From an uncultured Oceanisphaera sp. (GTDB taxonomy: Bacteria; Pseudomonadota; Gammaproteobacteria; Enterobacterales; Aeromonadaceae): a stretch of DNA of 64,000 nt. The stretch covers positions 1-64,000 of the forward strand of contig NZ_CANLZU010000011.1 in the NCBI RefSeq assembly GCF_947495715.1, read 5' to 3'. Of this stretch, positions 30,945 to 44,402 are shown in pieces. Below the pieces are notes generated by a model. The model made no database searches. It was not told where the DNA came from and saw only the letters and a program-made list of their open reading frames with translations. Position 1 is the first letter of the stretch; each line of letters opens with the position of its first letter. The translations under genes were made by a program, and so were the position numbers.

Positions 30945-32687
30945 TCACCTCATGGCATTGTGCTGTTGGGTATAGGCAATAAACGCCGCCGGCTTCAGCG
31001 GCGGAGAATACCAGTAGCCTTGCACCAGGGTGCAGCCCATGCCCCTGAGCAAGTCGATATGTTCGACCCGCTCCACGCCTTCCGCCACCGTGACGCAGCC
31101 CAGGTTACGGGCCATGTTGATCACCGTTTCCACCAGCCGCCGGTCCTGGCAATCGGTATCCATCTCGTCGATAAAGGCGCGGTCGATCTTCAACACAGAT
31201 ACCGGCATTAATTTGAGGTAGGCCAGCGAAGAATAACCGGTACCAAAGTCATCGATGGCAATCGAAATGCCCTGCTCCGCCAATTGCTGCAACTGACTCA
31301 GTGCCAGCTCCATGTTCTGCATCAGACCCGACTCGGTCACCTCCACTTCCAGCGCCCCTCTGGGCAGGCGGCTTTGCTGAAGCCGGGTGATCAACTGGTC
31401 GGCAAAGCCGGGCTGCATCAGCTGCAATGCCGCCACATTCACCGCGACCTTGAAGTCCGCTGCCACCGATTCCTGCTCCAGCCAGCATTCCAGCTGACGG
31501 ATGGCGGTGTCGATCACCCAGTCTCCCAGCCGCAGAATATCTCCACTGGCTTCGGCAATGGGAATGAAGTCCACCGGTGAGATAAAACCCAGCTCGGGAT
31601 GAACCCAGCGCAGCAGGGCTTCGGCGCCGGTTACCCGACCGCTGTGCAGGTTCACCTTGGGCTGATAAACCAGAAACAGTTCTTGATTATCTATCGCGGC
31701 ATGCAGCGCCTGGCGGCGACGGTTAATAGCCAGCAGATCCTGCTCCAGTACCGGCTGATAGCATTGCCAGCAATTATGCTCGGTCGGCAGCGCCATCGAG
31801 GCCAGTCGCACCAGGTGCTCGGGTGACCGATGAGCAAAACCGCTGTGACTGACCCCGATGCGGACTTTCAGGTACAACAGCAGATGCTCGACTTCAAACG
31901 CCAGGCTGACCACCGCCACCAGTTCATTCGCTCGCCGAGCGATGTCCTGCTCGCCGATGCCGTCAAACTCCAGCAGCAGCCATTCGTTGCCGCCCCACAC
32001 CCCCAGTTGCCGACGCAGCGATCCCGGTAGCCGCTGCAGGCGCTCCCCCACCGCTCGGCTCAGGGCTTCTGCTATCCCGTAACCGTGCACCCGGGCAATG
32101 TCGTCCATTCCCTCCAGCACAATAAAGTACACCACCGCCTCGCGGCCCTGCTGCAGCCACTCGAGCAGGCCACGGCGGTTGGGGAGTTCGGTCTGCGGGT
32201 CGGTCAGCGACAAACGATGCAGGTCGGCGGTACGCTGCTTCACCAGCTCTTCCAGCAGCTCGGCCCGACTGCTGCGCTCACGCAACAGAAAATGCAGCTC
32301 CAGGGTATTGTGAATGCGCTGCAGCACCTCGAAACGGTCGAAGGGCTTGGGCAAAAAATCCCGCGCCCCCAGATTCAGCGCCTGCAGACGTGTATCGGGA
32401 TCGGTCTGGGCACTGAGCACAATCACCGGCGGCGCCTGATTTTTCCAGTGGGTCTTCAACCGCTCCAGCACCTGATAGCCGTTGATATGGGGCATGTGAA
32501 TATCGAGCAGCAACAGGTCGGGCATGCCGGCTTCCAGCAGCGCCTCGAGTCGGCGTGGGTCGGTTTCGCCCCGTACGCCCCGATAGCCATAGTCTTCCAG
32601 CTGCTGGACCAACAATTCGACGTTAATCGGGTTGTCGTCGAGCACCAGAATATCGGCATCTTTGTAAACCAGAGGAATTTTTGGCAT
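30945..32687 (-). CDS. Response regulator with degenerate GGDEF and intact EAL domain
   Basis: A predicted c-di-GMP phosphodiesterase under two-component control. It is 580 aa. The receiver domain (about 10-125) has the phospho-acceptor Asp in LLLLDIHMPHINGY and the lysine in DFLPKPFD. The GGDEF-like domain (about 165-310) reads GGNEW at the active loop, so cyclase activity is unlikely. The EAL domain (about 325-570) has AEALLRW, the metal-binding DDFGTGYSS and KIDRAFI intact. It overlaps the hybrid kinase stop by 1 nt and is probably its partner. Lowering c-di-GMP would oppose the cellulose system of this window (inference). Confidence 0.9.
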   Translation of the reverse strand: MPKIPLVYKDADILVLDDNPINVELLVQQLEDYGYRGVRGETDPRRLEALLEAGMPDLLLLDIHMPHINGYQVLERLKTHWKNQAPPVIVLSAQTDPDTRLQALNLGARDFLPKPFDRFEVLQRIHNTLELHFLLRERSSRAELLEELVKQRTADLHRLSLTDPQTELPNRRGLLEWLQQGREAVVYFIVLEGMDDIARVHGYGIAEALSRAVGERLQRLPGSLRRQLGVWGGNEWLLLEFDGIGEQDIARRANELVAVVSLAFEVEHLLLYLKVRIGVSHSGFAHRSPEHLVRLASMALPTEHNCWQCYQPVLEQDLLAINRRRQALHAAIDNQELFLVYQPKVNLHSGRVTGAEALLRWVHPELGFISPVDFIPIAEASGDILRLGDWVIDTAIRQLECWLEQESVAADFKVAVNVAALQLMQPGFADQLITRLQQSRLPRGALEVEVTESGLMQNMELALSQLQQLAEQGISIAIDDFGTGYSSLAYLKLMPVSVLKIDRAFIDEMDTDCQDRRLVETVINMARNLGCVTVAEGVERVEHIDLLRGMGCTLVQGYWYSPPLKPAAFIAYTQQHNAMR

Positions 32688-35335
32688 CAGTCCACAGGCT
32701 CCAGCAAGTCATCCAGCACCTTCAGCAGCCGGAGTATATCGATGGGTTTGGTCAGATAATCCCGAAATCCGGCCTTGCTCGCACGCTTGATGTCTTCCGG
32801 CATGGCATTGGCCGACAGGGCGACGATGGGAATGGTACGGGTCAGCGGATGGCGCCCGAACAGCCCGGCCGCTTCAATCCCGCTCATGCCCGGCAGGCTG
32901 ATGTCCATCAGGATCAAATCCGGCGGGTTCGAGCAGGCTATTTCAAAGGCCAGCTCGGCCGAGTGCACGCACTCGAGTTGCATGCCTGGCCGCTCTTCAA
33001 ATACTTCAGCCATCAGCCGCTGGTTGGCCGGGTTGTCTTCCACATAGAGCACGGTGCGCCGCGCCCCTGCAACCGGTTCGGCCTGGGGTTCCTGGTACAG
33101 ATCAGCCACCGCCTTTCGCGAAGAAGACACCGCCAACGGCAGGCAGAACCAGAACTCGCACCCTTCACCATGATGATTATCGACCCCGATACGTCCTCCC
33201 ATCTGTTCGAGAATACTCTTGGTCAGTGCCAGCCCGACACCGGTGCCTTCAATGGCGCCATTTTCCGCCCCCAGTCGATTGAAGGGCTGAAACAGCTGTT
33301 CCAGATACAGGGGATCTATGCCCGGCCCCGTGTCTCGTACCGAGACCCGCAATAGGTCGGCGTGCTGACGGCAACCAATATAGACCTTCCCCTCGGAACG
33401 GTTATATTTGATAGCATTGGAAATCAGGTTGATCATTACCTGTTTCAGCCGGGTGTAGTCGGCCAGCACCGCCGGCATGCGGTTCAGCGCCGCATCAATA
33501 TGCAGCGCCACCCCCTGTTGCCGGGCGATGGGCATCAGGGTGTCACAGGCATCATCAATCACTTCGCGCGGCTGTATCGCTTCGAGCGACATATTGATGC
33601 GACCGGCTTCGATGCGCGCCAGATCCAGCACTTCGTTAATCAGATTGAGCAGATGGCTGCCACTCTTGTAAATCTGCTCCACCTGTCGCAACTGCCGTTC
33701 GTCAAGCGACGCGCGTTTATTGCTCTGCAGCAGCTGGGCAAAGCCCATGATGGCATTAAGCGGTGTGCGCAGCTCGTGGCTCATGGATGACAGAAAATCG
33801 GTCTTGGCGCGGCTGGCCTGCTCGGCCTGATCGCGCGCCTGACGCAATTGCTCGGTAAATTGCTCACGTTCGTTTAGCTGGCGATACAACTTGATCAGCA
33901 GGGCGCAAGTGGAGGTAAAGGGCTCCAGCCAGGACACCAGATCCTGATCATAGTCTTCACCGCCATTGGCGATGGCATACATACCGATGACGGTGCCCTC
34001 GTCGAGAATGGGGACACCCAGATAATTATGCAACGGCGGATGACCCGGTGGAAAACCACCCCGGCGCTCGTCACTGTCCATGCCGTTGCTGAGTACGGTA
34101 TTGCCCTGGGCAAACACCTGGCCCAGCATGCTGTGCGGGTTGGTCAGCTTCATCTCGCCCGCCTGCAGTTTCTGCATCAACTGGCGCGATTCCTCGTTCC
34201 AGGACAAGTCAGTAATAGCGTGAATTTTCAGCTCGGGTTGCCCCTGTTCCGACAAGACTTCGCCAATCAGCGAATAGTCACTGTCGGTCAGCTCGCGCAG
34301 GGCTTCCTGCAGAAAGCTCCACAAGCGGTTGCCGGACATCAGCGCATGGTAGTCGGTCAGTCCCTTGTGCAACACGCTCAGCAGGCGCTGCTGCTTTTGC
34401 AGCTGGCGGGCCGCGCTCCGCTCGCGCTGTTCCGCCTCATGCATTTCGGTCAGATCGGTCAGAATGCCGATAAACTCCATTTGCCGAGGCTGATGCGAAT
34501 CGACCACCCGACCCACCGCCAGATGCACCGGCACCTGATGACCGCTCTTGTGCAACGCCGACACTCGACGTCCCTTGCCGATCACCTTGGGCTGCCCGCT
34601 CTCGATATAATTGTGCAAATACTGATCGTGATGGGCGGACCACTGTTCCGGCATCAGAGCACTGACATTTTTTTCCAGTAATTCCGCTCGCCGATAGCCG
34701 AGCAGGCTCAGGGCATAATCGTTGATTTCCTGAATGATTCCTCGACCGTCAATCCGCACTATGCCGGCTGCCGCCCCCTGGGTAATGGCTTCGTAACGCG
34801 CCAGCCGATGATCGCTGACCATGCACTGGTTGCCGAGCAGCTGCCGTTGCTGATGCAGCTGAATCAATTGCTCGGTCTGTTTTGCCAGCAATTGCAGTTG
34901 TCGCCATTCATCCTCATCGAGACGGCGCGACCGAGTATCGATGACACACAGGGTTCCCAGACTCATCCCGGATTCCAGCACCAAGGGAATACCGGCATAA
35001 AAGCGAATATGTGGCGCACCGGTTACCAGCGGATTATCGGCAAAACGGGGGTCCAGCGTGGCATCTTCCACCACCAGCGGCTCGCCATCGGCCACCACAT
35101 GACCACAAAATGAAATATCCCGCCCGGTTTCACAGCTGTCCACGCCGACTCGGGCCTTGAACCACTGTCGATCTTTATCCACCAGTGACACCAATGCTAT
35201 CGGAACCTTCAACAGCAGCGCCGTCAGCTCGACCAGCTGTTCAAAAGCAGGTTCGGACGGCGAGTCCAGCAACTGCAACTCATGAAGTTGAGCCAACCTG
35301 GCTGCTTCGTTTTCGGGAAACTGGGGAGTGATCAT
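32687..35335 (-). CDS. Hybrid sensor histidine kinase (GAF-PAS-GAF-HisKA-HATPase-REC)
   Basis: A soluble sensor kinase of 882 aa with no membrane helix. An N-terminal GAF domain (about 20-165, with ISFCGHVVADGEPLVV) is followed by a PAS domain (about 185-300), a second GAF-like domain (about 330-480), and a coiled coil. The HisKA phospho-His lies in MSHELRTPLNAIMGF. The HATPase has INLISNAIKYN and GTGVGLALTKSIL. A C-terminal receiver follows with Asp in LILMDISLPGMSG. ATG 35335 is chosen because the GAF domain begins at once; upstream ATG codons to 35467 lack a good binding site. It is paired with the EAL regulator downstream. Confidence 0.88.
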   Translation of the reverse strand: MITPQFPENEAARLAQLHELQLLDSPSEPAFEQLVELTALLLKVPIALVSLVDKDRQWFKARVGVDSCETGRDISFCGHVVADGEPLVVEDATLDPRFADNPLVTGAPHIRFYAGIPLVLESGMSLGTLCVIDTRSRRLDEDEWRQLQLLAKQTEQLIQLHQQRQLLGNQCMVSDHRLARYEAITQGAAAGIVRIDGRGIIQEINDYALSLLGYRRAELLEKNVSALMPEQWSAHHDQYLHNYIESGQPKVIGKGRRVSALHKSGHQVPVHLAVGRVVDSHQPRQMEFIGILTDLTEMHEAEQRERSAARQLQKQQRLLSVLHKGLTDYHALMSGNRLWSFLQEALRELTDSDYSLIGEVLSEQGQPELKIHAITDLSWNEESRQLMQKLQAGEMKLTNPHSMLGQVFAQGNTVLSNGMDSDERRGGFPPGHPPLHNYLGVPILDEGTVIGMYAIANGGEDYDQDLVSWLEPFTSTCALLIKLYRQLNEREQFTEQLRQARDQAEQASRAKTDFLSSMSHELRTPLNAIMGFAQLLQSNKRASLDERQLRQVEQIYKSGSHLLNLINEVLDLARIEAGRINMSLEAIQPREVIDDACDTLMPIARQQGVALHIDAALNRMPAVLADYTRLKQVMINLISNAIKYNRSEGKVYIGCRQHADLLRVSVRDTGPGIDPLYLEQLFQPFNRLGAENGAIEGTGVGLALTKSILEQMGGRIGVDNHHGEGCEFWFCLPLAVSSSRKAVADLYQEPQAEPVAGARRTVLYVEDNPANQRLMAEVFEERPGMQLECVHSAELAFEIACSNPPDLILMDISLPGMSGIEAAGLFGRHPLTRTIPIVALSANAMPEDIKRASKAGFRDYLTKPIDILRLLKVLDDLLEPVD

Positions 35336-35471
35336 AAAAATCCGGCAATATGGAGGCGAAATGGAACCCGTTGTAAGCGGCACTGATTGGGGACTGTAAC
35401 CGTTTATAAGCTCCATGTGGAGCATGTTTAGACCTTTTATTGATCTTGAACCGCGTCGGTCACCCACAATG

Positions 35472-35499: not shown

Positions 35500-35607
35500 T
35501 CAGATGCCGAGGGCCAGTTTAATGGCCATGCCTACCAGAGTCACGGCCAGCACACCGGCCAGATAAAGCACGGCAAACCAGAGCCAGCTCTTTTTACGAT
35601 TCGCCAT
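35500..35607 (-). CDS. DUF2474/CioZ-like small subunit of cytochrome bd
   Basis: A 35-aa peptide: short basic N-terminus (MANRKKSW), then one membrane helix (LWFAVLYLAGVLAVTLVGMAI). Small single-helix proteins of the DUF2474 type are encoded after cydB in CIO-type oxidase operons and take the place that CydX has in E. coli. ATG 35607 overlaps the cydB stop as TGATG. The basis is size, topology and position rather than strong sequence identity. Confidence 0.8.
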   Translation of the reverse strand: MANRKKSWLWFAVLYLAGVLAVTLVGMAIKLALGI

Positions 35608-36596
35608 CAGTAACCCTCTTCGAAATCCTCGACCTTGCCGGAGAAAATGCGATAGCCCCACAGGGTATAGGCGCAGATCAGCGGCAGAAAGATAAGAATG
35701 CCCGGCAGCAGAAATTTGAGGCTGGAATCCGGCGCGCTGGCCTGCCACAGGGTCAGTTGATGGGGAATAAGATAAGGGAACAGTCCCACCACCAGACCGG
35801 CAAAACCGAGCACGAACAGTCCGACCGCCAGCCAGAAGGGCCGGGTCTCGTGGGGTTCACCATCCAGATCCCGATACAGTAACCAGCCGAGCAAAGCGCT
35901 GAGCAAGGGCAGCGGCAGCAACAGCAGGAAATTGATGCCATCCAGCCAGCGCGCCCTTACCTCGGTGTTGGCGTACAGGGTCCACAGGCTGACGATCACC
36001 AGAATCGCCATGATGGTCAGCACCAGCTTGCGCCCCAAATGAGCAGAGCGCGCCATGATCGGCCCCCGGCTTTTCATCACCAGATAGCAGCAGGCCAGCA
36101 GCGCATAGGCCACCATCAGCGCAAAACCGGTGAACACGCTGAACGGTGTCAGCCAGTCCAGCGCGCCCTGCTGACCCGCTTCCACGCCCTGCACCACGGC
36201 GCCGAGAATGGCGCCCTGGCAGAAGGTGGCTACGGTAGAGCCGAGAAAGAAGGACTTGTCCCACCAGGGCTTGGAGCGGTGCGACTTGAAGCGGTATTCA
36301 AACGCCACACCCCGAAAGATAAGCCCGATCAGCATGATGATGATCGGCGTATACATGGTGGAAAGAATACCCGCGTAAGCGGCGGGAAAGGCGGCAAACA
36401 GCACCACGCCGCCAAAGACCAACCAGGTTTCGTTACCGTCCCACACGTGGGAGATGGAGCGCATCATGTGATCGCGCTCGCCTTCGCTCCTGAACCAGGG
36501 GTAGAGGATGCCGAGGCCGAGGTCGAAACCGTCCAGCACCACGTACATCAGCACCGCAAAGCCCAGCAATAAATAATAAAACAGCGCCAGATCCAT
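35607..36596 (-). CDS. cydB: Cytochrome bd (CIO-type) quinol oxidase subunit II
   Basis: The 329-aa membrane subunit of the bd oxidase. DGFDLGLGILYPW near the N-terminus, GNETWLVFGGVVLFAAFP and FRGVAFEYRFK are family hallmarks, and about eight helices can be counted. Its length is closer to CioB (about 335) than to E. coli CydB (379). ATG 36596 sits one base after the cydA stop; a longer frame to 36617 overlaps cydA without need. Confidence 0.95.
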   Translation of the reverse strand: MDLALFYYLLLGFAVLMYVVLDGFDLGLGILYPWFRSEGERDHMMRSISHVWDGNETWLVFGGVVLFAAFPAAYAGILSTMYTPIIIMLIGLIFRGVAFEYRFKSHRSKPWWDKSFFLGSTVATFCQGAILGAVVQGVEAGQQGALDWLTPFSVFTGFALMVAYALLACCYLVMKSRGPIMARSAHLGRKLVLTIMAILVIVSLWTLYANTEVRARWLDGINFLLLLPLPLLSALLGWLLYRDLDGEPHETRPFWLAVGLFVLGFAGLVVGLFPYLIPHQLTLWQASAPDSSLKFLLPGILIFLPLICAYTLWGYRIFSGKVEDFEEGY

Positions 36597-36597
36597 G

Positions 36598-38004
36598 TTA
36601 ATTCTCCACCACGTCACGTTGCAGTTTCTTCACCCAGGCCAGGGCAAAGCCGGGCGCATTGACACCAATCATGTGCTGTTCCAGCCGCGTCATGTCCGGC
36701 GGCCCCTTGCGGATCAGCTTGGCCATGAAATAGAGATAGACACACAGCAGCAGACTGTAGGTCAGCACAAACAGCGTCAGCGAGAACAACACCCGCTCGG
36801 CCGGCAGCGGCGTCACCACTTCCATGGTGCGTACCAGGCCGTGCACCAGCCAGGGCTGACGGCCCACTTCCGCCACATACCAGCCGGCCAGAGTAGAGAT
36901 AACGCCCGACGGGATCAGCAGCGTCATCAGCAGCAGAAAGGGTTTGCTCTCGAAACGACTCCCCCGGCGACGCAACCACAAGCCCCACAGGGCGGCACCG
37001 ATCATCAGCACCCCCAGCCCCACCATGACGCGGAAGGAATAGAACACCAGCGGCACATAGGGTCTTTCGTCGGCAGGCACCGATTTCAGTCCCTGCAACT
37101 CGCCATCCGGCTCGTGGGTCAGGATCAGCGAGGCCAGCTTGGGGATCCTGATTTCAAAATGGTTGGTCTCGTTTTCCATGTCGGGCACCGCAAACAACAG
37201 CAGCGGGGCACCGGCTTCCGTCTCGGGCCAGATACCTTCCATCGCCGCCACCTTGACTGGCTGATGCTCTTTCACGTTGAGGCCGTGAAAATCACCCACC
37301 ACCGCCTGCAGCGGCGCCAGCACCAGAGCCGCCCACAACGCCATCGACAGTCCCTTGCGGGCAAAGGCGAGATCCCGGTTCTTGCGCAGATACCAGGCAC
37401 TGACGCCGCCAATCACGAAGGTGGCAGTGAGCATGGCCGCCAGCAGCATGTGCACCAGCCGATACGGCATGGAGGGGTTGAAGATCACTTCCATCCAGCT
37501 GGCCACCTCGAAGCGGCCATCGACGATCTCGTAGCCTGCCGGGGTCTGCATCCAGGAATTGGCAACGATAATCCAGAACGACGAAATCCAGGTGCCCACC
37601 GCCACCACACAGGTGGCGAAATAGTGCAGCTTTTCCCCTACCCGTTGCCAGCCGAACAGCATGACCCCGAGAAAACCGGCTTCCAGGAAGAAGGCGGTCA
37701 ACACTTCGTAGGCCAGCAGAGGCCCCAGTACCGGGCCGACCAGTTCGGAGAAACGAGAAAAGTTGGTGCCGAATTCGTACGACAGCACTATGCCACTGAC
37801 CACGCCCATACCGAAGGTAATGGCGAAGGGCTTGATCCAGAATTTGGCCAGTTGAAAGTAGACCGGATTCCGGGTTTTCAGCCACAGCCCTTCCCAGATG
37901 GCGATGGCGGTTGCCAGACCTATGGTGATAGCCGGAAAGATAATGTGAAAACTGACGGTAAAGGCGAATTGGATCCGCGACAGTATGGCAGCATCAAGTT
38001 CCAT
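36598..38004 (-). CDS. cydA: Cytochrome bd (CIO-type) quinol oxidase subunit I
   Basis: The heme-bearing subunit that oxidises quinol and reduces oxygen to water. The 468-aa protein is shorter than E. coli CydA (522) because the periplasmic Q-loop is short, as in cyanide-insensitive CIO oxidases. An axial-ligand His20 lies in FAFTVSFHIIFPA. GWYVAEVGRQPW is the conserved CydA block, and YRLVHMLLAA holds another ligand-type His. A small peptide gene lies 9 nt upstream with AAGGGAAC as binding site. A sigma-54 promoter precedes both. Confidence 0.95.
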   Translation of the reverse strand: MELDAAILSRIQFAFTVSFHIIFPAITIGLATAIAIWEGLWLKTRNPVYFQLAKFWIKPFAITFGMGVVSGIVLSYEFGTNFSRFSELVGPVLGPLLAYEVLTAFFLEAGFLGVMLFGWQRVGEKLHYFATCVVAVGTWISSFWIIVANSWMQTPAGYEIVDGRFEVASWMEVIFNPSMPYRLVHMLLAAMLTATFVIGGVSAWYLRKNRDLAFARKGLSMALWAALVLAPLQAVVGDFHGLNVKEHQPVKVAAMEGIWPETEAGAPLLLFAVPDMENETNHFEIRIPKLASLILTHEPDGELQGLKSVPADERPYVPLVFYSFRVMVGLGVLMIGAALWGLWLRRRGSRFESKPFLLLMTLLIPSGVISTLAGWYVAEVGRQPWLVHGLVRTMEVVTPLPAERVLFSLTLFVLTYSLLLCVYLYFMAKLIRKGPPDMTRLEQHMIGVNAPGFALAWVKKLQRDVVEN

Positions 38005-38013
38005 CTTGTTCCC

Positions 38014-38112
38014 TTAACGAGATTGAAAGCGGTTTACTACCGCCGGCAGGATAGCCAGCAGCAGAACAATAAAAATGGCAGAAAATTCCAGTACCAAAGT
38101 AGTCATGTTCAT
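38014..38112 (-). CDS. 32-aa membrane peptide at the head of the cytochrome bd operon
   Basis: ATG 38112 follows CTGGAGAAACG and opens 32 codons ending in TAA at 38014, nine bases before the cydA ATG. The product has a short N-terminus (MNMTTLVLEF), one clear membrane helix (SAIFIVLLLAILPAVV) and a basic end (NRFQSR). I do not recognise it: it resembles neither CydX nor the DUF2474 peptide that follows cydB. A bd-type oxidase with small peptides at both ends of its operon is unusual. It could be an extra subunit or a leader peptide for cydA translation. Confidence 0.7.
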   Translation of the reverse strand: MNMTTLVLEFSAIFIVLLLAILPAVVNRFQSR

Positions 38113-38181
38113 AAAACGTTTCTCCAGGGTGGACTCAATCCGGTTGGTTTACTCGAGGGTGAACCTGCTGTCGCTAGATAA

Positions 38182-38197
38182 AGCACGATGCATGCCA
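38182..38197 (-). promoter_or_regulatory. Sigma-54 promoter of the cytochrome bd operon
   Basis: On the minus strand TGGCATGCATCGTGCT fits the sigma-54 consensus TGGCACG-N4-TTGCW with two mismatches. The essential GG (38196-38195) and GC (38184-38183) are kept with the required 10-bp spacing. Transcription would start near 38172, some 60 nt before the small peptide gene. An NtrC-family activator is encoded just across the divergent region. Confidence 0.7.
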
Positions 38198-38221
38198 CAA
38201 ATAGGAAAACCTGCACCCGCC

Positions 38222-38235
38222 TTGGCCTGGATCAA
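38222..38235. promoter_or_regulatory. FNR/ANR-like site
   Basis: TTGGCCTGGATCAA matches TTGAT-N4-ATCAA at 8 of 10 fixed positions, with one perfect half-site. It is centred about 56 bp upstream of the predicted sigma-54 start of the oxidase operon. Confidence 0.35.
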
Positions 38236-38260
38236 AAAAACGATGAATACTTGCCCCGGG

Positions 38261-38277
38261 TGACAACCAGGTTTACA
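38261..38277. promoter_or_regulatory. Dyad site A (putative activator binding site)
   Basis: TGACAACCAGGTTTACA is a 17-bp dyad of form TGWCAAC-N3-GTTTACA with one imperfect position pair. It is centred about 97 bp upstream of the predicted sigma-54 start, and a near copy lies 34 bp away. Confidence 0.6.
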
Positions 38278-38294
38278 GTCTTTCCCCGTTAAAG

Positions 38295-38311
38295 TGTCAA
38301 CGATGTTTACA
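38295..38311. promoter_or_regulatory. Dyad site B (putative activator binding site)
   Basis: TGTCAACGATGTTTACA is a fully symmetric dyad (TGTnAAC-N3-GTTnACA). The surrounding 19 bases match those of site A at 15 positions. It is centred about 131 bp upstream of the oxidase start and 24 bp before the kinase ATG, so it could also control the kinase-regulator genes themselves. Confidence 0.62.
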
Positions 38312-38326
38312 TGACGGGAACCCAGC

Positions 38327-40195
38327 ATGGCGTTGGATCTGGCTTTTGAATTGATGATGTTGCTCACCGGCGGCTGTGCCCTGCTGGTGTCGGCCTGGCT
38401 GTTCTGGCGCGCGCGCCGCCAACGCAGCATGAAGGCGCTGGCCGGTTTCGGCATCATGATGGCGCTGTGGTGCAGTGGCCATGTCTCGGTGTTTTATGGC
38501 TGGGAACGGCTGGGCAAGATGCTGATCCTGGCCAACCCGCTGATGCCCACCTTCTTCCTCGACTTCGCCATCGGCTTCGTCAATCAGGGGCCGGGCCGAC
38601 GACCCTGGCTGGATAATCTGGCCCGCCGGCGTGGCCTCTTCTATTCGGCGGCCCTGCTGGTGCTCGGCATCAGCCTGGCGCTGGGCGGCGGCGACATCAT
38701 CTCGTTCGGTCCCTTCAGTCATTACTTCGTGTTCAGCGGGGCCGGCTGGTTCAACATCATTTATACCATCGTCATCGGAATACTGGCGCACGCCCTGCTG
38801 TTGTGGGGCTGGCGTATCCATCGCGGTAACCGCCGCCGCTCCATCGCCGCCATGTTTGCCGCCGGCGCCTGGGGGCTTTGGCTTGCCACCAGCTTTATTT
38901 TCCCTTCACTCGGTCTGTACTGGTATCCCTGGCCCATGCTGCTGCTGCCCACCTATGTGGTTTTGCTGGTGTATGGCGTGGTGCGCTACCAGATGCTGGA
39001 AGTCAACGCTTGGGCCAACCGCGCCCTGTTGTGGATACTGATGACGGCACTGGTGATGGGCCTGATTGCCCTGCTCAGCTCCATGGCCGGTCCGTTCGGC
39101 ATGCAGGCGCTGGCCAATGTGCCCGAATGGCAGCTGTGGCTCTATTCCATGCTGTTGCTGATGCTGGCACTGGCACTGTATCAACCGGTCAGCAAACTGG
39201 TAGAGCGGCTGATTTATCCCGGCAGCCGGCTTGGCGAGCAACTGCTGGATACCTGGCTCAATCGCCTGGCCGAGCCCAGTCACTGGGCCGGGCTGAGCGC
39301 GGTGGCCGAGCAGTTGCTGTCCCATCAGATGGGGCAGCCGGTGCAGGTACGGCTGTTACCGAACGAACAGCGGCCCCCTGTCGTCGAAGGTCCCTGCATT
39401 ATCTGTCGCCACCAGAATCCGGGCTGGCAATCCCGGCTGCAGGGCTTTGAGGACGTCACCCCCGGGCTGCGGCTGGCGGCAGAAGTGTTTGCCTCGCTGC
39501 TGACCACGCGCTGCAGCCTGCTGGAACGGTCGCTGCAACTGGCGGAAGCCGAGCGCAAGCGGCTGTCGGAGCAGCATCTGGTGGAGCTGGGCGGCCTGTC
39601 GGCGGCCATGGCGCACGAGCTGCGCAACCCGCTCAATATCATCTCCATGGCCTCCGCCGGGCTGGAGCCTGAACGCAAGGCGATGATCCAGACCCAGCTC
39701 AAGCGCGCCGACCGCCTGATCTCGGACATGCTCGCCTACTCCGGTAACATCGGCGTGCAGCGTCAATCGGTACCATTGCTCGCCATGCTGAACAGCCTGC
39801 GCCCCCAGTTCGACTGGCAGCACACCCGCTTCGAGTGTGCCCTGTCCGACGAGGTTCGCCTGAGTGCCGATGCCTATCGACTGCAACAGGTGCTGGTCAA
39901 CCTGATCGACAATGCCCTGGCCTTCGTGCGCAATCAGCCGAATGGCGTGATCCGCATCGAGGCCGGTGACAGACCCGGCATAGTCCGGGTGCACAACAAC
40001 GGCCCGGCGGTTCCCGAAGACATGCTTAATCACCTGTTTCGTCCCTTCGTCGGCAAGCGCAGCGGCGGCAGTGGCCTGGGACTGTCTATCGTGCGCCGCA
40101 TCATGGATGCCCACGGCGGCCGCATTCAACACCGCAGCGATATGGGCTGGCCGGTGACCTTTGAACTCTTTTTCCCCGAGGACAGATCATGTTGA
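38327..40195 (+). CDS. Membrane-bound sensor histidine kinase, divergent from cytochrome bd
   Basis: A sensor kinase of 622 aa. The N-terminal 300 residues hold about eight to nine membrane helices, like the 7TM-type kinase input domain found in PrsK-like kinases. A weakly conserved GAF-like region follows (about 305-405). Then come HisKA with phospho-His430 in MAHELRNPLNIIS and HATPase with LVNLIDNALAF, VHNNGPAVPEDM and GSGLGLSIVRRI. There is no large periplasmic domain, so it probably senses within or at the membrane, for example quinone or redox state (inference). It overlaps the response regulator by 7 nt. Confidence 0.9.
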   Translation: MALDLAFELMMLLTGGCALLVSAWLFWRARRQRSMKALAGFGIMMALWCSGHVSVFYGWERLGKMLILANPLMPTFFLDFAIGFVNQGPGRRPWLDNLARRRGLFYSAALLVLGISLALGGGDIISFGPFSHYFVFSGAGWFNIIYTIVIGILAHALLLWGWRIHRGNRRRSIAAMFAAGAWGLWLATSFIFPSLGLYWYPWPMLLLPTYVVLLVYGVVRYQMLEVNAWANRALLWILMTALVMGLIALLSSMAGPFGMQALANVPEWQLWLYSMLLLMLALALYQPVSKLVERLIYPGSRLGEQLLDTWLNRLAEPSHWAGLSAVAEQLLSHQMGQPVQVRLLPNEQRPPVVEGPCIICRHQNPGWQSRLQGFEDVTPGLRLAAEVFASLLTTRCSLLERSLQLAEAERKRLSEQHLVELGGLSAAMAHELRNPLNIISMASAGLEPERKAMIQTQLKRADRLISDMLAYSGNIGVQRQSVPLLAMLNSLRPQFDWQHTRFECALSDEVRLSADAYRLQQVLVNLIDNALAFVRNQPNGVIRIEAGDRPGIVRVHNNGPAVPEDMLNHLFRPFVGKRSGGSGLGLSIVRRIMDAHGGRIQHRSDMGWPVTFELFFPEDRSC

Positions 40196-41553
40196 ACCCA
40201 CCCCGTATCCTGCTGATTGACGACGAGCCCGCCTTTCGCACCCTGAGTGCCCAGTGGTTGACCTCGGAAGGCTATGAGGTCAACACCGGCGCCAGCCTGG
40301 ACGAACTGAGCGCCAAGCTGCCGCACTTCGACGCAGACTTGATCCTGCTCGATCTGTCGCTGCCGCCGCACTTCGATCCCCAGCATACCCTGGCGGCACT
40401 GCCCAACTTCATCGATCGACCGGTGATCATCCTCACCGGTCACGGCGAGCGCGAGCTGGCGCTGGAAGCGCTGCGCCAGGGTGCCTGGGATTTTCTGGCC
40501 AAGCCCATCGATCCCGACATGCTGGCGGTGGTGGTCAAGCGCGCCCTGACCAAACACCAGCTGGTGCGCGAGCTCAACAACCTCAAACACCAACAGGTCG
40601 ATCAGCAGGGGCTGGATACGCTGATTGGCGCCTCGCCGTCGATGAACAGCATTCGCGCCCTGGTCGGACGCATCGCCCCCACCGATGTGCGGGTGCTGGT
40701 GACCGGCCCCTCGGGCACCGGCAAGGAGGTGATCTCGAAGGCGGTGCACGCCCTCAGTGCCCGCGCCGGCGGCCCCTTTATTTCGGTGCATTGCGGTGCC
40801 ATTCCCGCCGAATTGCTGGAAAGCGAGCTGTTCGGCCACACCAAAGGCGCCTTTACCGGTGCCGACAAGGCCCGCGACGGCCTGCTCAAGCTGGCCGACG
40901 GCGGTACCCTGTTTCTGGACGAGATCGGCGACATGCCGCTGGCGATGCAGGTCAAACTGTTGCGGGTGCTGCAGGAAGGCAGCTATTACCCGGTGGGCGG
41001 TCGTGTCCTTGAAACCATCGATGTACGGCTGGTGTCGGCCACCAACGCGGACTTGCCCGAAAAGGTGAAAACCGGGGAGTTTCGGGAAGATCTCTACTAC
41101 CGCATCAAGGGCGTGAACATCGAAACCCGGCCTTTGGACGAGCGGCCCGAAGATATTCCGCTGCTGATCACCCACTTTCTGGGGCTGCCGGCCCGGGGGG
41201 ACAACCGGGCGCCGCTGCATCCGGATACCGCCGCCTTCAACTGGTTTATTCAACGCCGCTGGCCGGGCAATGTGCGCGAGCTGAAAAGCGCCCTCGACAG
41301 CGTGGCCGCCATCGCCAGAAACGGCATCATTACCCTGGAAGACATTGCCCTGCTCTACCCGGACGCCCAGGCCGGCAGCGAACACGCCACAGCCCGGCCC
41401 GGCGACAGCCTGGAAGCCCAGGTGCGGGCGCTGGAAATTTCACTGATAAGCCAGGCGCTGGCCAGATTCGACCACAACCGCACCCACGCCGCCCAGGCTC
41501 TGGGCCTGTCTCGTCAGGGGTTATTGAAAAAAATAGAGCGCTACGGACTGTGA
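40189..41553 (+). CDS. NtrC-family sigma-54 response regulator
   Basis: An enhancer-binding activator of 454 aa. The receiver domain has the acidic pair Asp11-Asp12 and phospho-acceptor Asp55 in LILLDLSLP, with Lys in LAKPIDP. The AAA+ domain (about 145-375) has Walker A GPSGTGKE, the sigma-54 contact loop GAFTGA, and FLDEIGDMPL. A Fis-type helix-turn-helix closes the protein (HNRTHAAQALGLSRQGLLKK). It resembles PrsR-type regulators. Its likely target is the divergent cytochrome bd operon, which carries a sigma-54 promoter and paired dyads. Confidence 0.93.
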   Translation: MLNPPRILLIDDEPAFRTLSAQWLTSEGYEVNTGASLDELSAKLPHFDADLILLDLSLPPHFDPQHTLAALPNFIDRPVIILTGHGERELALEALRQGAWDFLAKPIDPDMLAVVVKRALTKHQLVRELNNLKHQQVDQQGLDTLIGASPSMNSIRALVGRIAPTDVRVLVTGPSGTGKEVISKAVHALSARAGGPFISVHCGAIPAELLESELFGHTKGAFTGADKARDGLLKLADGGTLFLDEIGDMPLAMQVKLLRVLQEGSYYPVGGRVLETIDVRLVSATNADLPEKVKTGEFREDLYYRIKGVNIETRPLDERPEDIPLLITHFLGLPARGDNRAPLHPDTAAFNWFIQRRWPGNVRELKSALDSVAAIARNGIITLEDIALLYPDAQAGSEHATARPGDSLEAQVRALEISLISQALARFDHNRTHAAQALGLSRQGLLKKIERYGL

Positions 41554-41655: not shown

Positions 41656-41784
41656 GATTTGGTTGAATCTTGCACGTCGGCTTATCCTTCCTTAACGATC
41701 CTTCTATTGATCTTTCGCAAACAATACCCGGGATGGCGCGACTATTATCGGCGCCAATTCACACCCCCTTTCCAAGGTATGGCT

Positions 41785-43407
41785 ATGCTGCGACAACTCA
41801 AAATCGGACCCCGCTCCATTATTTCCTTCGGCCTGCTGGGAGCCATTACCCTGCTGTTGGGAATCATGGCCATGGTGCAGTTTGGCAACATAGGGCGAGA
41901 AGTTGATGTCATGGCCCACAAACGCATGCCCGCCGCGATTAAAATCGGCGAGATACGGCGTGACTTTCTGCTGATCCGCCTTTACACCCTCAACGCCCTC
42001 TACGCAGACAACCAGCAACGTCGCCGCGATGCCGTCAACCGCCTTAAAAGTCTGGAAGACAGTTTTCTGACCAACGTTCAGGAGATGAAGGCCTATGTAG
42101 AATCGAACGAAGGCAAGCAGCTGCTTGGCAGCATTATTCAGAGTAAAGCCAACTACGATACCGTTAATAACCGCCTGCTGAGCATGATCAACAGCGGCCA
42201 ACAGACCCAGGCCGAGCAGTTTCGCCATCAGGGGCTTAACGAGCTGGGCATCAAGGTGACCACCGATCTGAATAACCTGGGCAGTTACCAGAAACAAAGA
42301 GCCGATGAGGTATCGGTTTCAGTCGATGACATTATCTCGACCTCCAATCTCATCATGGTGCTGGCCATTGTTCTGGCCATGCTGCTGGTGGTGACGCTGG
42401 CCCTGCTGTTCAGCCGCAGCCTGCTGCTGCCGATTCGCAAGGCGCTGGAGGTCAGCAATATCATTGCCTCCGGCAATCTGACCTCGGAATTCGGTGACGA
42501 CGCCAAGGATGAAGCCGCCGACATGATTCGCGCCCTGGCCCAGATGCAGCAAAAACTCAAACAGACCATTTTCGATATCAATGACTCTGCAACCCAACTG
42601 GCGTCGACCGCCGAACAGCTGAGTGTGGTGACCGACCAGTCTACCCGCACCCTGCAGCAGCAAAGCGACGAGCTGGAGCAGGCCGCCACCGCCGTGAACG
42701 AAATGACGGTGGCGGTGGAAGAAGTGGCCCGCAACGCCGCCTCCACTTCGCAAAATTCCGACATGGCCGACGACAAGGCCCGCACCGGCCGTACCAGAGT
42801 CACCAACACCATCAATACCGTGACCGAGCTTGAACATGAAATTACCAATACCAAGCAAGGAGTAGAAAGCCTGGCCAATCGGGTACGCGATATCGGTACC
42901 GTGCTGGACGTGATTCGCTCCATTGCCGAACAAACCAACCTGCTGGCGCTGAACGCCGCCATTGAAGCCGCCCGCGCCGGCGAGTCGGGCCGCGGATTTG
43001 CGGTGGTGGCCGACGAGGTACGGGCACTGGCTCACCGCACTCAGGAGTCGACCAAGGAAATCGAAGCCATGATGCACGCCATTCAAAGCGACACCAGCAG
43101 CACCGTTAACGCCATTCAGATGAGCACCGATCGCACCATGCAAACCCGTCAGGTCGCCCAGGAAGCCGGCGAAGCGCTGGAGCTGATTACCGAGGCCATC
43201 ATGCAGATCAACCAACAGAACCAGACCATTGCCAGCGCCGCCGAAGAGCAGGCCACGGTGGCCAGAGAGGTAGACAAAAACCTGATCAACATTCGGGATC
43301 TGTCGGTGCAGACTTCGGCCGGCGCCAACGAAACCAGCGCTTCCAGCAACGATCTGGCCCGCCTGGCCGAACGCCTCAACGAGATGGTGGGCCGGTTCCG
43401 GATATAA
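41785..43407 (+). CDS. Methyl-accepting chemotaxis protein
   Basis: A transmembrane chemoreceptor of 540 aa. TM1 is at about residues 12-32. A periplasmic four-helix-bundle ligand domain follows (about 35-190), TM2 at about 192-215, HAMP at about 216-270, and a long cytoplasmic coiled coil. The signalling tip [23 protein letters not shown] is conserved. ATG 41785 has AAGG eight bases upstream; ATG 41779 is too close to that site, and the frame open to 41659 lacks family likeness. It has no C-terminal CheR-binding pentapeptide. The ligand is unknown. Confidence 0.93.
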
Positions 43408-44229: not shown

Positions 44230-44310
44230 TGTAGAAGCCTGCTTCAGCTGGCTGGTAGCGCGCAAGCGGTACGTCAAAAAACAAATCGCGCAGCTGAAGC
44301 AGCGCCTACA
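44230..44310. repeat. Palindromic repeat, copy 1
   Basis: About 81 bases beginning TGTAGAAGCCTGCTTCAGCT and ending in GCTGAAGCAGCGCCTACA. The ends are reverse complements (CTTCAGCTG/CAGCTGAAG; TGTAG/CTACA). It is followed 14 bases later by a second copy. Confidence 0.75.
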
Positions 44311-44324
44311 AGGCCGGAGTCATT

Positions 44325-44402
44325 TGTAGACGCCTGCATCAGCTGGCTGGTGGCACGCAGCGGTACCTCAAAAAACACACCGCGCAGCTGAAGCAGCGCC
44401 TG
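44325..44402. repeat. Palindromic repeat, copy 2
   Basis: About 78 bases clearly homologous to the repeat at 44230-44310, with scattered substitutions and small indels. Its CATCAGCTG and CAGCTGAAG arms still pair. The two copies form a tandem pair between the LysE and NSS genes. Confidence 0.75.

Follow-up and report, generated by a model that had tools for sequence, protein, structure and literature searches.

What controls a cytochrome bd oxidase operon that lies back to back with genes for a membrane histidine kinase and an NtrC-type activator? The question is raised by a 64,000-nucleotide stretch of DNA (the window) from an uncultured Oceanisphaera sp. (contig NZ_CANLZU010000011.1). With cytochrome bd oxidases, bacteria can keep respiring in the presence of cyanide, sulfide and nitric oxide, and these enzymes are under study as drug targets; their known regulators are FNR/Anr, ArcA, RoxSR or Crp-type factors. 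A sigma-54 circuit is silent until its activator spends ATP. An earlier note on this DNA had proposed that the kinase and the activator form a sigma-54 switch for the neighbouring oxidase. The evidence assembled here points strongly to that answer: the locus very probably encodes a dedicated two-component sigma-54 switch for one terminal oxidase, itself probably a bd oxidase of the cyanide-insensitive (CIO) type. If so, the oxidase would be a strictly on-demand enzyme, and bd respiration would be added to the sigma-54 repertoire.

A kinase-regulator pair divergent from a bd oxidase operon

The histidine kinase (HK) gene (38327..40195, plus strand; 622 residues) overlaps by 7 nt the gene for an NtrC-type response regulator (RR; 40189..41553, plus strand; 454 residues). 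Both are divergent from cydA/cioA, encoding bd oxidase subunit I (36598..38004, minus strand; 468 residues; PF01654, 2e-172), and from cydB/cioB, encoding subunit II (35607..36617, minus strand; 336 residues; PF02322, 5.9e-94). The Pfam families Cyt_bd_oxida_I and Cyt_bd_oxida_II side by side identify a cytochrome bd oxidase. Over the whole genome (3.65 Mb, 82 contigs) CydA is the sole PF01654 match, and a single bd oxidase is therefore encoded; the genome also contains four matches to the heme-copper oxidase family PF00115, a gene for rpoN and three Crp-type helix-turn-helix (HTH) proteins. CIO-type oxidases have a short Q-loop in CydA; the length of CydA here and its scores, which fall far under the E. 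coli-type bd-I/bd-II equivalog cut-offs, suggest that the oxidase is probably of this type.

RR matches Response_reg, Sigma54_activat (4.2e-68) and HTH_8 in Pfam. It has the parts of a bacterial enhancer-binding protein (an NtrC-type sigma-54 activator), namely a phospho-acceptor aspartate (D55) in the receiver, Walker A/B and GAFTGA motifs in the sigma-54 AAA+ domain, and a Fis-type HTH. The GAFTGA motif (residues 220-225) is kept in 80 of 81 aligned RRs, the remaining one reading GTFTGA; D55, T83, K105 and Walker A are present in all 81. The open reading frame (ORF) coordinates, the Pfam matches and a nine-helix model of the kinase agree with the earlier description of an oxidase operon divergent from a multi-helix kinase and an NtrC-family activator with an intact GAFTGA loop.

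The C-terminal part of HK consists of HisKA (1.7e-9; H430) followed by HATPase_c (7.8e-22), and this kinase core matches solved kinases such as ZraS. Nine membrane helices are predicted (residues 3-28, 33-56, 60-85, 102-118, 140-164, 168-195, 203-222, 224-254 and 267-296). AlphaFold2 models, with a mean pLDDT of 78.9 for the full protein and 84.0 for the sensor alone, place a hairpin between helices 4 and 5 and arrange the helices as 7+2; HisKA_7TM (PF16927) aligns with residues 12-226 at 8.8e-6 and 26.2 bits, against a cut-off of 28.6. Residues 304-372 form a helix-strand region that is GAF-like in appearance and lacks a Pfam GAF match. Within the membrane part, H155 and R220 are found in all 81 sequences, H52 in 80 and C49 in 77; structure alignments of the kinases took in 44 of the 81. 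A bis-histidine heme site at H52/H155 was considered and dropped because the helix limits put the two residues at seemingly different membrane depths. Retinal binding was likewise dropped: in the window sequence helix 7 (203-222) is free of lysine, and the similarity to rhodopsin/GPCR folds is weak.

Tandem dyads and a -24/-12 element inherited with the pair

Between the two operons stands a -24/-12 element, TGGCATGCATCGTGCT (38182..38197, minus strand), which faces the oxidase genes and would set a start near 38171. It has GG-N10-GC spacing and occurs once in the window; sigma-54 promoters follow a TGGCAYR-N4-TTGCW type of consensus. Upstream of the element lie two tandem dyads of the type TGTAAAC-N3-GTTKACA, which the earlier note had not described. 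Putative enhancer dyad A, TGTAAACATCGTTGACA (38295..38311, minus strand), ends 15 nt before the HK start codon, and putative enhancer dyad B, TGTAAACCTGGTTGTCA (38261..38277, minus strand), is 34 nt from dyad A.

These parts were followed through 23 genomes of the genus, grouped as supplied by the database. A full-length HK relative was found in 18 of the 23 and, at roughly 50% identity, in four genomes from elsewhere in the order; cydA is divergent from and adjoins HK in all 22, and RR occurs in the same 18 genus genomes as HK. All 18 carry a TGGCA(C/T)...TGC(A/T)-type element 157-195 nt before cydA, with dyads 34 nt apart from start to start and the second dyad 79-80 nt before the TGG. Scanning named genomes with the sensor alignment gave a second set, which shares several genus genomes with the first: 85 HK relatives, of which 80 were kept. 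Their loci come from 13 named genera (Oceanisphaera, Zobellella, Oceanimonas, Pokkaliibacter, Marinomonas, Oceanobacter, Oceanospirillum, Rheinheimera, Mangrovitalea, Zooshikella, Hahella, Oleispira and Algicola) and some unclassified metagenome-assembled genomes (MAGs). The co-occurrence of the pair with cydAB that the earlier note had proposed to look for was complete: in all 80, RR follows HK and cydA-cydB is divergent upstream, at HK identities of 40-98% and RR identities down to 51%. The nearest HK relatives are in a gammaproteobacterial MAG (98%) and Oceanisphaera arctica (91%). The RR of one locus (L134) is cut by a contig end, and in two Marinomonas loci (L080 and L084) the tblastn match to CydA is partial, perhaps owing to a frameshift or sequencing error.

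The spacing of the regulatory parts is nearly fixed. Across the 80 loci, which for dyads and element count related species and not independent events, the best pair of dyads has no more than 4 mismatches in 79 (4000 dinucleotide shuffles gave a mean of 10.9 and none at or below 5), and the dyads are 33-36 nt apart in 76. A GG-N10-GC follows dyad B by 76-90 nt in 75 loci, against a mean of 4.1 and a maximum of 8 of 80 after shuffling, and by 76-80 nt in 73; in L132, for example, the locked-distance test found TGGCCCAACAATCGCA at +79. The predicted sigma-54 promoter with the required GG/GC spacing that the earlier note had read from one sequence is thus retained in all 18 genus genomes with HK and in 75 of the 80 loci. 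Dyad A lies 0-17 nt from the HK start in 68 loci, distances that are approximate because the start codons were extrapolated from tblastn matches. In most loci the distance between dyads and element varies by no more than a few nt, in contrast to the rest of the intergenic region, which diverges. The kinase-cydA gap of Oceanisphaera pacifica (L063) is 806 nt, with extra DNA between the HK start and dyad A; the dyads, the element and a small ORF before cydA are there at their usual distances from cydA.

The dyads are also rare. At one mismatch or fewer they occur in the 3.65-Mb genome at these two places only, which supports the earlier word "dedicated" for the window genome, with the limit that weaker sites would escape such a search. 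The same pattern read backwards has six matches, so single matches are not rare by chance; there is still no other match to the forward pattern. A dyad-B pattern was found once per genome in 17 of the 18 genus genomes with the pair, and twice in the remaining one (G004).

The five genus genomes without the pair provide the complementary observation. HK and RR are absent from them genome-wide at the ortholog level, the dyad-B pattern is absent genome-wide, and neither dyads nor a -24/-12 element (0 of 5) stand upstream of cydA. The conservation of the element that the earlier note had put forward as a check thus holds in both directions. In one of the five (L054) a looser pattern matches three times, each time at another place and with one base too many; bare GG-N10-GC is present by chance five times in L051 and twice in L054. 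The next matched gene upstream of cydA in all five is a transporter of the NSS family, 220-680 nt away; in the window that gene sits beyond a chemotaxis gene and lysE. All five retain CydA, the main matches having 85-91% identity (G012 has it split between two contig ends, with 75% for the second piece); cydB was seen in each of the other four, the genomes covered by that check. The oxidase can therefore do without the module, and the module without the oxidase was not seen among the 80 kept loci. With cydA retained throughout and the pair present in some sister species but not in others, the locus is a natural experiment.

Inheritance of the pair follows that of the oxidase. HK and CydA distances are correlated over 78 of the 80 loci (r = 0.90, reached by 0 of 500 permutations). 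In a CydA tree (131 rows were read, two of them, of 228 and 311 aa, were removed as short, and L054 was not in the input), the pair-bearing CydAs and four without the pair form one clade with an SH-aLRT of 99, apart from 29 pair-less CydAs. At an E value of 1e-6, no HK or RR relatives were found in the flanks (about 1.5 kb, shorter at contig ends) of 29 further CydA loci, those with available DNA among the 94 CydA-bearing genomes of the class-wide draw described below. Three changes of the pair label are required on the tree, consistent with a single gain and two losses. Since the position of the pair-bearing O. pacifica among the genomes that have lost the pair is weakly supported (80-81), there may have been one loss only.

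Small open reading frames and neighbouring genes

The oxidase operon begins with a 32-residue, single-helix ORF, MNMTTLVLEFSAIFIVLLLAILPAVVNRFQSR (38014..38112, minus strand), which is preceded by a GGAGAA ribosome site and lies between the -24/-12 element and cydA; the earlier note had passed it over. No Pfam or NCBIfam family matches it at cut-off (searched to E 10). Its length is mostly 31-40 residues in the other loci, 48 in Zooshikella, and longer in a few by way of upstream starts. A profile built from 16 seeds out of the 80 loci, which match by construction, finds it in 75 of the 80 at E 1e-3 and in 77 at E 0.1, the three without it being one Hahella and two Oleispira.

What this protein does can be read in two ways. 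It may be one more structural subunit of the oxidases in this clade, corresponding to CydX on the N-terminal side and standing outside the switch, a proposal for which we see about an even chance. A first operon gene for a single-helix protein resembles CydX in kind, and the presence of the ORF is confounded with the CydA clade. In Burkholderiales a subunit role has been suggested for CydP, a small membrane protein whose gene immediately precedes cydA (PMC9104464; here and below, the cited papers are represented by part of their text). A subunit of the oxidase sits less easily with the five genus genomes that lack the pair, where the ORF is decayed or unrecognisable although CydA remains 85-91% identical in its main matches (75% in the second piece of G012): no intact copy is found, and the profile detects remnants in two, with an internal stop. 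In 29 pair-less bd loci, too, the profile has no match at E 0.1 (best E 0.69; two of these have short upstream DNA of 230 and 414 nt). On the other reading, which we hold only tentatively and think rather unlikely, the protein would be part of the switch: made from the sigma-54 transcript, it might meet the nine-helix kinase or bridge kinase and oxidase, and so report or limit oxidase production. Kinase, activator, peptide and oxidase would then form a closed sigma-54 feedback loop reading the state of its own enzyme, a loop maintained in several families of Gammaproteobacteria and, where lost, lost as a whole.

Four of the pair-less genomes (L043, L044, L051 and L052) share one change that both stops the small-ORF remnant and makes TGTAAT, a -10-like string; L054 is without it. 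Possibly a sigma-70 promoter was born in the dead ORF and replaced the sigma-54 one, and chance stands as the alternative.

At the other end of the operon, a 35-residue, single-helix ORF (35500..35607, minus strand) overlaps the cydB stop. By position it would correspond to the third subunit, CydX/DUF2474, an assignment made by position alone; it has no Pfam family at cut-off, and its sole match up to E 10 is to an unrelated family at E 0.03, short profiles having low power. Directly 3' of the operon, past a terminator-like hairpin noted by eye, lies a gene for a GAF-PAS-GAF hybrid histidine kinase with a C-terminal receiver (32687-35467, minus strand). On the other side, directly behind the RR gene, is a gene for a methyl-accepting chemotaxis protein (MCP) with a 4HB_MCP_1 sensor (41659-43407, plus strand). 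No MCP gene was found between cydA and the transporter in the five pair-less genus genomes, that interval being the only part searched. It is conceivable that chemotaxis is tied to the same signal as the kinase-regulator pair. Between lysE and the NSS transporter gene, the window has two copies of an imperfect palindromic element (44230-44401), as direct repeats of 43 and 35 nt at a spacing of 94-95. At two mismatches or fewer the core pattern of the element is absent from the rest of the genome, and a resembling string was noted by eye near cydA in L043.

The proposed circuit and known systems

A further element of the promoter region, also absent from the earlier note, bears on how the switch may be wired. 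The window has a degenerate FNR-type box, TTGATCCAGGCCAA (38222..38235, minus strand), with two mismatches to TTGAT-N4-ATCAA and centred near -57 if the -24/-12 element sets the start. Such boxes stand beside the promoter in many loci: TTGAT-N4-ATCAA at one mismatch or fewer was found in 55 of 80, compared with 1.4% in shuffles. Of the 55 boxes, 20 precede the element, with the TGG 36-38 nt further on in 19 cases; 32 are downstream, 31 of them 30-44 nt after the element and mainly in Marinomonas and Oceanospirillum; and three are in loci without the element. A box just past the start fits repression, so FNR would be expected to shut the operon off without oxygen. Sites for IHF were considered by eye and then dropped.

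We infer the following circuit. The nine-helix kinase would sense the respiratory state in or at the membrane and phosphorylate D55 of the regulator, which would bind the two tandem dyads next to the kinase gene. Its GAFTGA loop would then contact RNA polymerase with sigma-54, which waits in a closed complex at the -24/-12 element, at a distance of about 80 nt, and activation would start transcription of the small ORF, cydA, cydB and the cydX-like ORF. The bound regulator probably also damps its own operon, because dyad A abuts the kinase start codon. The FNR box, between enhancer and promoter in Aeromonadaceae and many Rheinheimera or just past the start in most Marinomonas, would probably silence the operon without oxygen, and the resulting logic would be "signal AND oxygen". 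Most probably the signal is a quinol chain that is blocked or over-reduced, as happens under cyanide, sulfide or nitric oxide (NO).

Several results weigh against this reading. As a lone match the -24/-12 element is cheap: about 10 sites like TGGCAYGNNNNNTGCW at one mismatch are expected by chance in 64 kb and four were found, for which reason we rejected the element as proof from the window alone; its significance comes from conservation across genomes. Even there, GG-N10-GC is missing at the locked place in five of the 80 loci, with GT at -12 in Zooshikella (2) and Algicola and no such element in two Oleispira. The dyad pattern was refined on the same loci in which it was first counted. A pattern derived from Aeromonadaceae only, a cleaner test, was therefore applied to the 67 loci outside that family: 57 have dyad pairs with no more than 6 mismatches, as against none of 1340 simple shuffles, and GG-N10-GC follows at 76-81 nt in 58, where about 2% would be expected. 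The FNR-type box is degenerate in the genus of the window, with its position kept, and does not reach one mismatch in 25 of 80 loci. The sensor part of HK matches no solved structure by sequence, and by fold its membrane part gives weak matches to seven-helix receptors and rhodopsins (best E 2.1e-3, none at 1e-3). Among 369 genomes drawn evenly from the class, HK (E <= 1e-100) was found in the window's own genome only and CydA, at the same threshold, in 94; the system is therefore confined to some lineages. The CydA tree, finally, was a quick one with long branches.

Two other explanations of the locus fare poorly. That the pair controls other genes, hitch-hikes beside cydAB and has no part in the dyads, which would belong to another regulator, seems very improbable to us. 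Gene order shared by descent in related species could produce such linkage, and since the CydAs concerned form one clade the 80 loci are not 80 independent events; yet the linkage holds down to 40% HK and 51% RR identity and across at least 13 genera, near-consensus dyads occur in the window genome here alone while dyad B is missing from the five pair-less genus genomes, and the dyad-element spacing stays within a few nt in most loci against a diverging intergenic background. Equally hard to credit is an ordinary sigma-70/FNR promoter for cydAB with a decorative or minor -24/-12 match: FNR/ANR control of bd oxidases is well known and 55 of the 80 loci have the box, but genomes without the pair are also without the -24/-12 element, in most Marinomonas the start of the box is 30-34 nt beyond the TGG (roughly +5 to +22 relative to the sigma-54 start, a repressor position), and a class II FNR start from a Marinomonas-type box would fall at or past the start of the small ORF, as estimated in one locus (L073).

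A dedicated sigma-54 switch thus remains much the best account of the locus. The locus offers a defined candidate enhancer, a sensor family with near-invariant H52, H155 and R220, and an undescribed small membrane protein, by which the signal and the role of the peptide become testable in marine bacteria that are not known pathogens. Its parts are of known kinds; as far as we found, the combination, the enhancer and the small protein are undescribed.

The RoxSR/RegBA regulator is not known to be an AAA+ sigma-54 activator. The present pair falls outside that system, its receiver being fused to Sigma54_activat and a Fis-type HTH and its genes lying beside the oxidase. In physiology RoxSR/RegBA is the closest known system, a membrane kinase and regulator controlling a cyanide-insensitive bd oxidase (PMC9104464, PMC13024080); PMC9104464 treats Anr and RoxS/RoxR in B. 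cenocepacia and P. aeruginosa. The earlier note had not recognised a locally encoded enhancer-binding system for a bd oxidase as described, and the full-text open-licence literature, in the portions covered, likewise gave no account of sigma-54 or NtrC-type control of cydAB/cioAB, an absence that is not proof. Term searches of the sigma-54 regulon papers PMC2725144, PMC4641369, PMC12316311 and PMC3162934, and of PMC4626219, PMC3916325 and PMC12194929, returned no sigma-54 control of cydAB in the text available; cydAB appears in PMC4626219 merely as the neighbour of an RNA gene, and in Azotobacter it is under an Fnr-like repressor (PMC3916325). CydP, set here against the small ORF by description, is said to be confined to Burkholderiales (PMC9104464), and the 32-residue ORF has no family match at cut-off.

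Sigma-54 activators offer further comparisons. FisR of Acinetobacter/Cupriavidus is divergent from a detoxification operon, and sulfide induces cydAB there; in the text available FisR has no partner kinase and controls sqr/pdo, and cydAB is not attributed to it (PMC7315123). PrsK/PrsR, the regulatory pair of the XrtA/PEP-CTERM system, is a membrane kinase with an NtrC-type regulator whose targets pair an upstream motif with -24/-12 (PMC1569441). RR scores 358.9 bits to TIGR02915 (cut-off 502.6) and HK 59.4 to TIGR02916 (cut-off 300), which places the present pair outside those families, and its putative target is the adjoining bd oxidase operon, reached through a dyad of its own kind. The tie to a terminal oxidase is found in two further systems. 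NmpRSTU of Myxococcus xanthus is a multi-component system in which an NtrC-like regulator controls a cbb3 cluster (PMC11841059); likened here by description and not by sequence, it differs in its heme-copper cbb3 target, its wider regulon and its larger number of parts. NifA of Azoarcus BH72, a sigma-54-type activator, positively affects the cbb3 cco genes (PMC3916325), as a nitrogen-fixation regulator without a dedicated pair and again with cbb3, not bd. Of the systems compared, NmpRSTU and NifA are the nearest sigma-54-type precedents for a terminal oxidase, both of them for cbb3.

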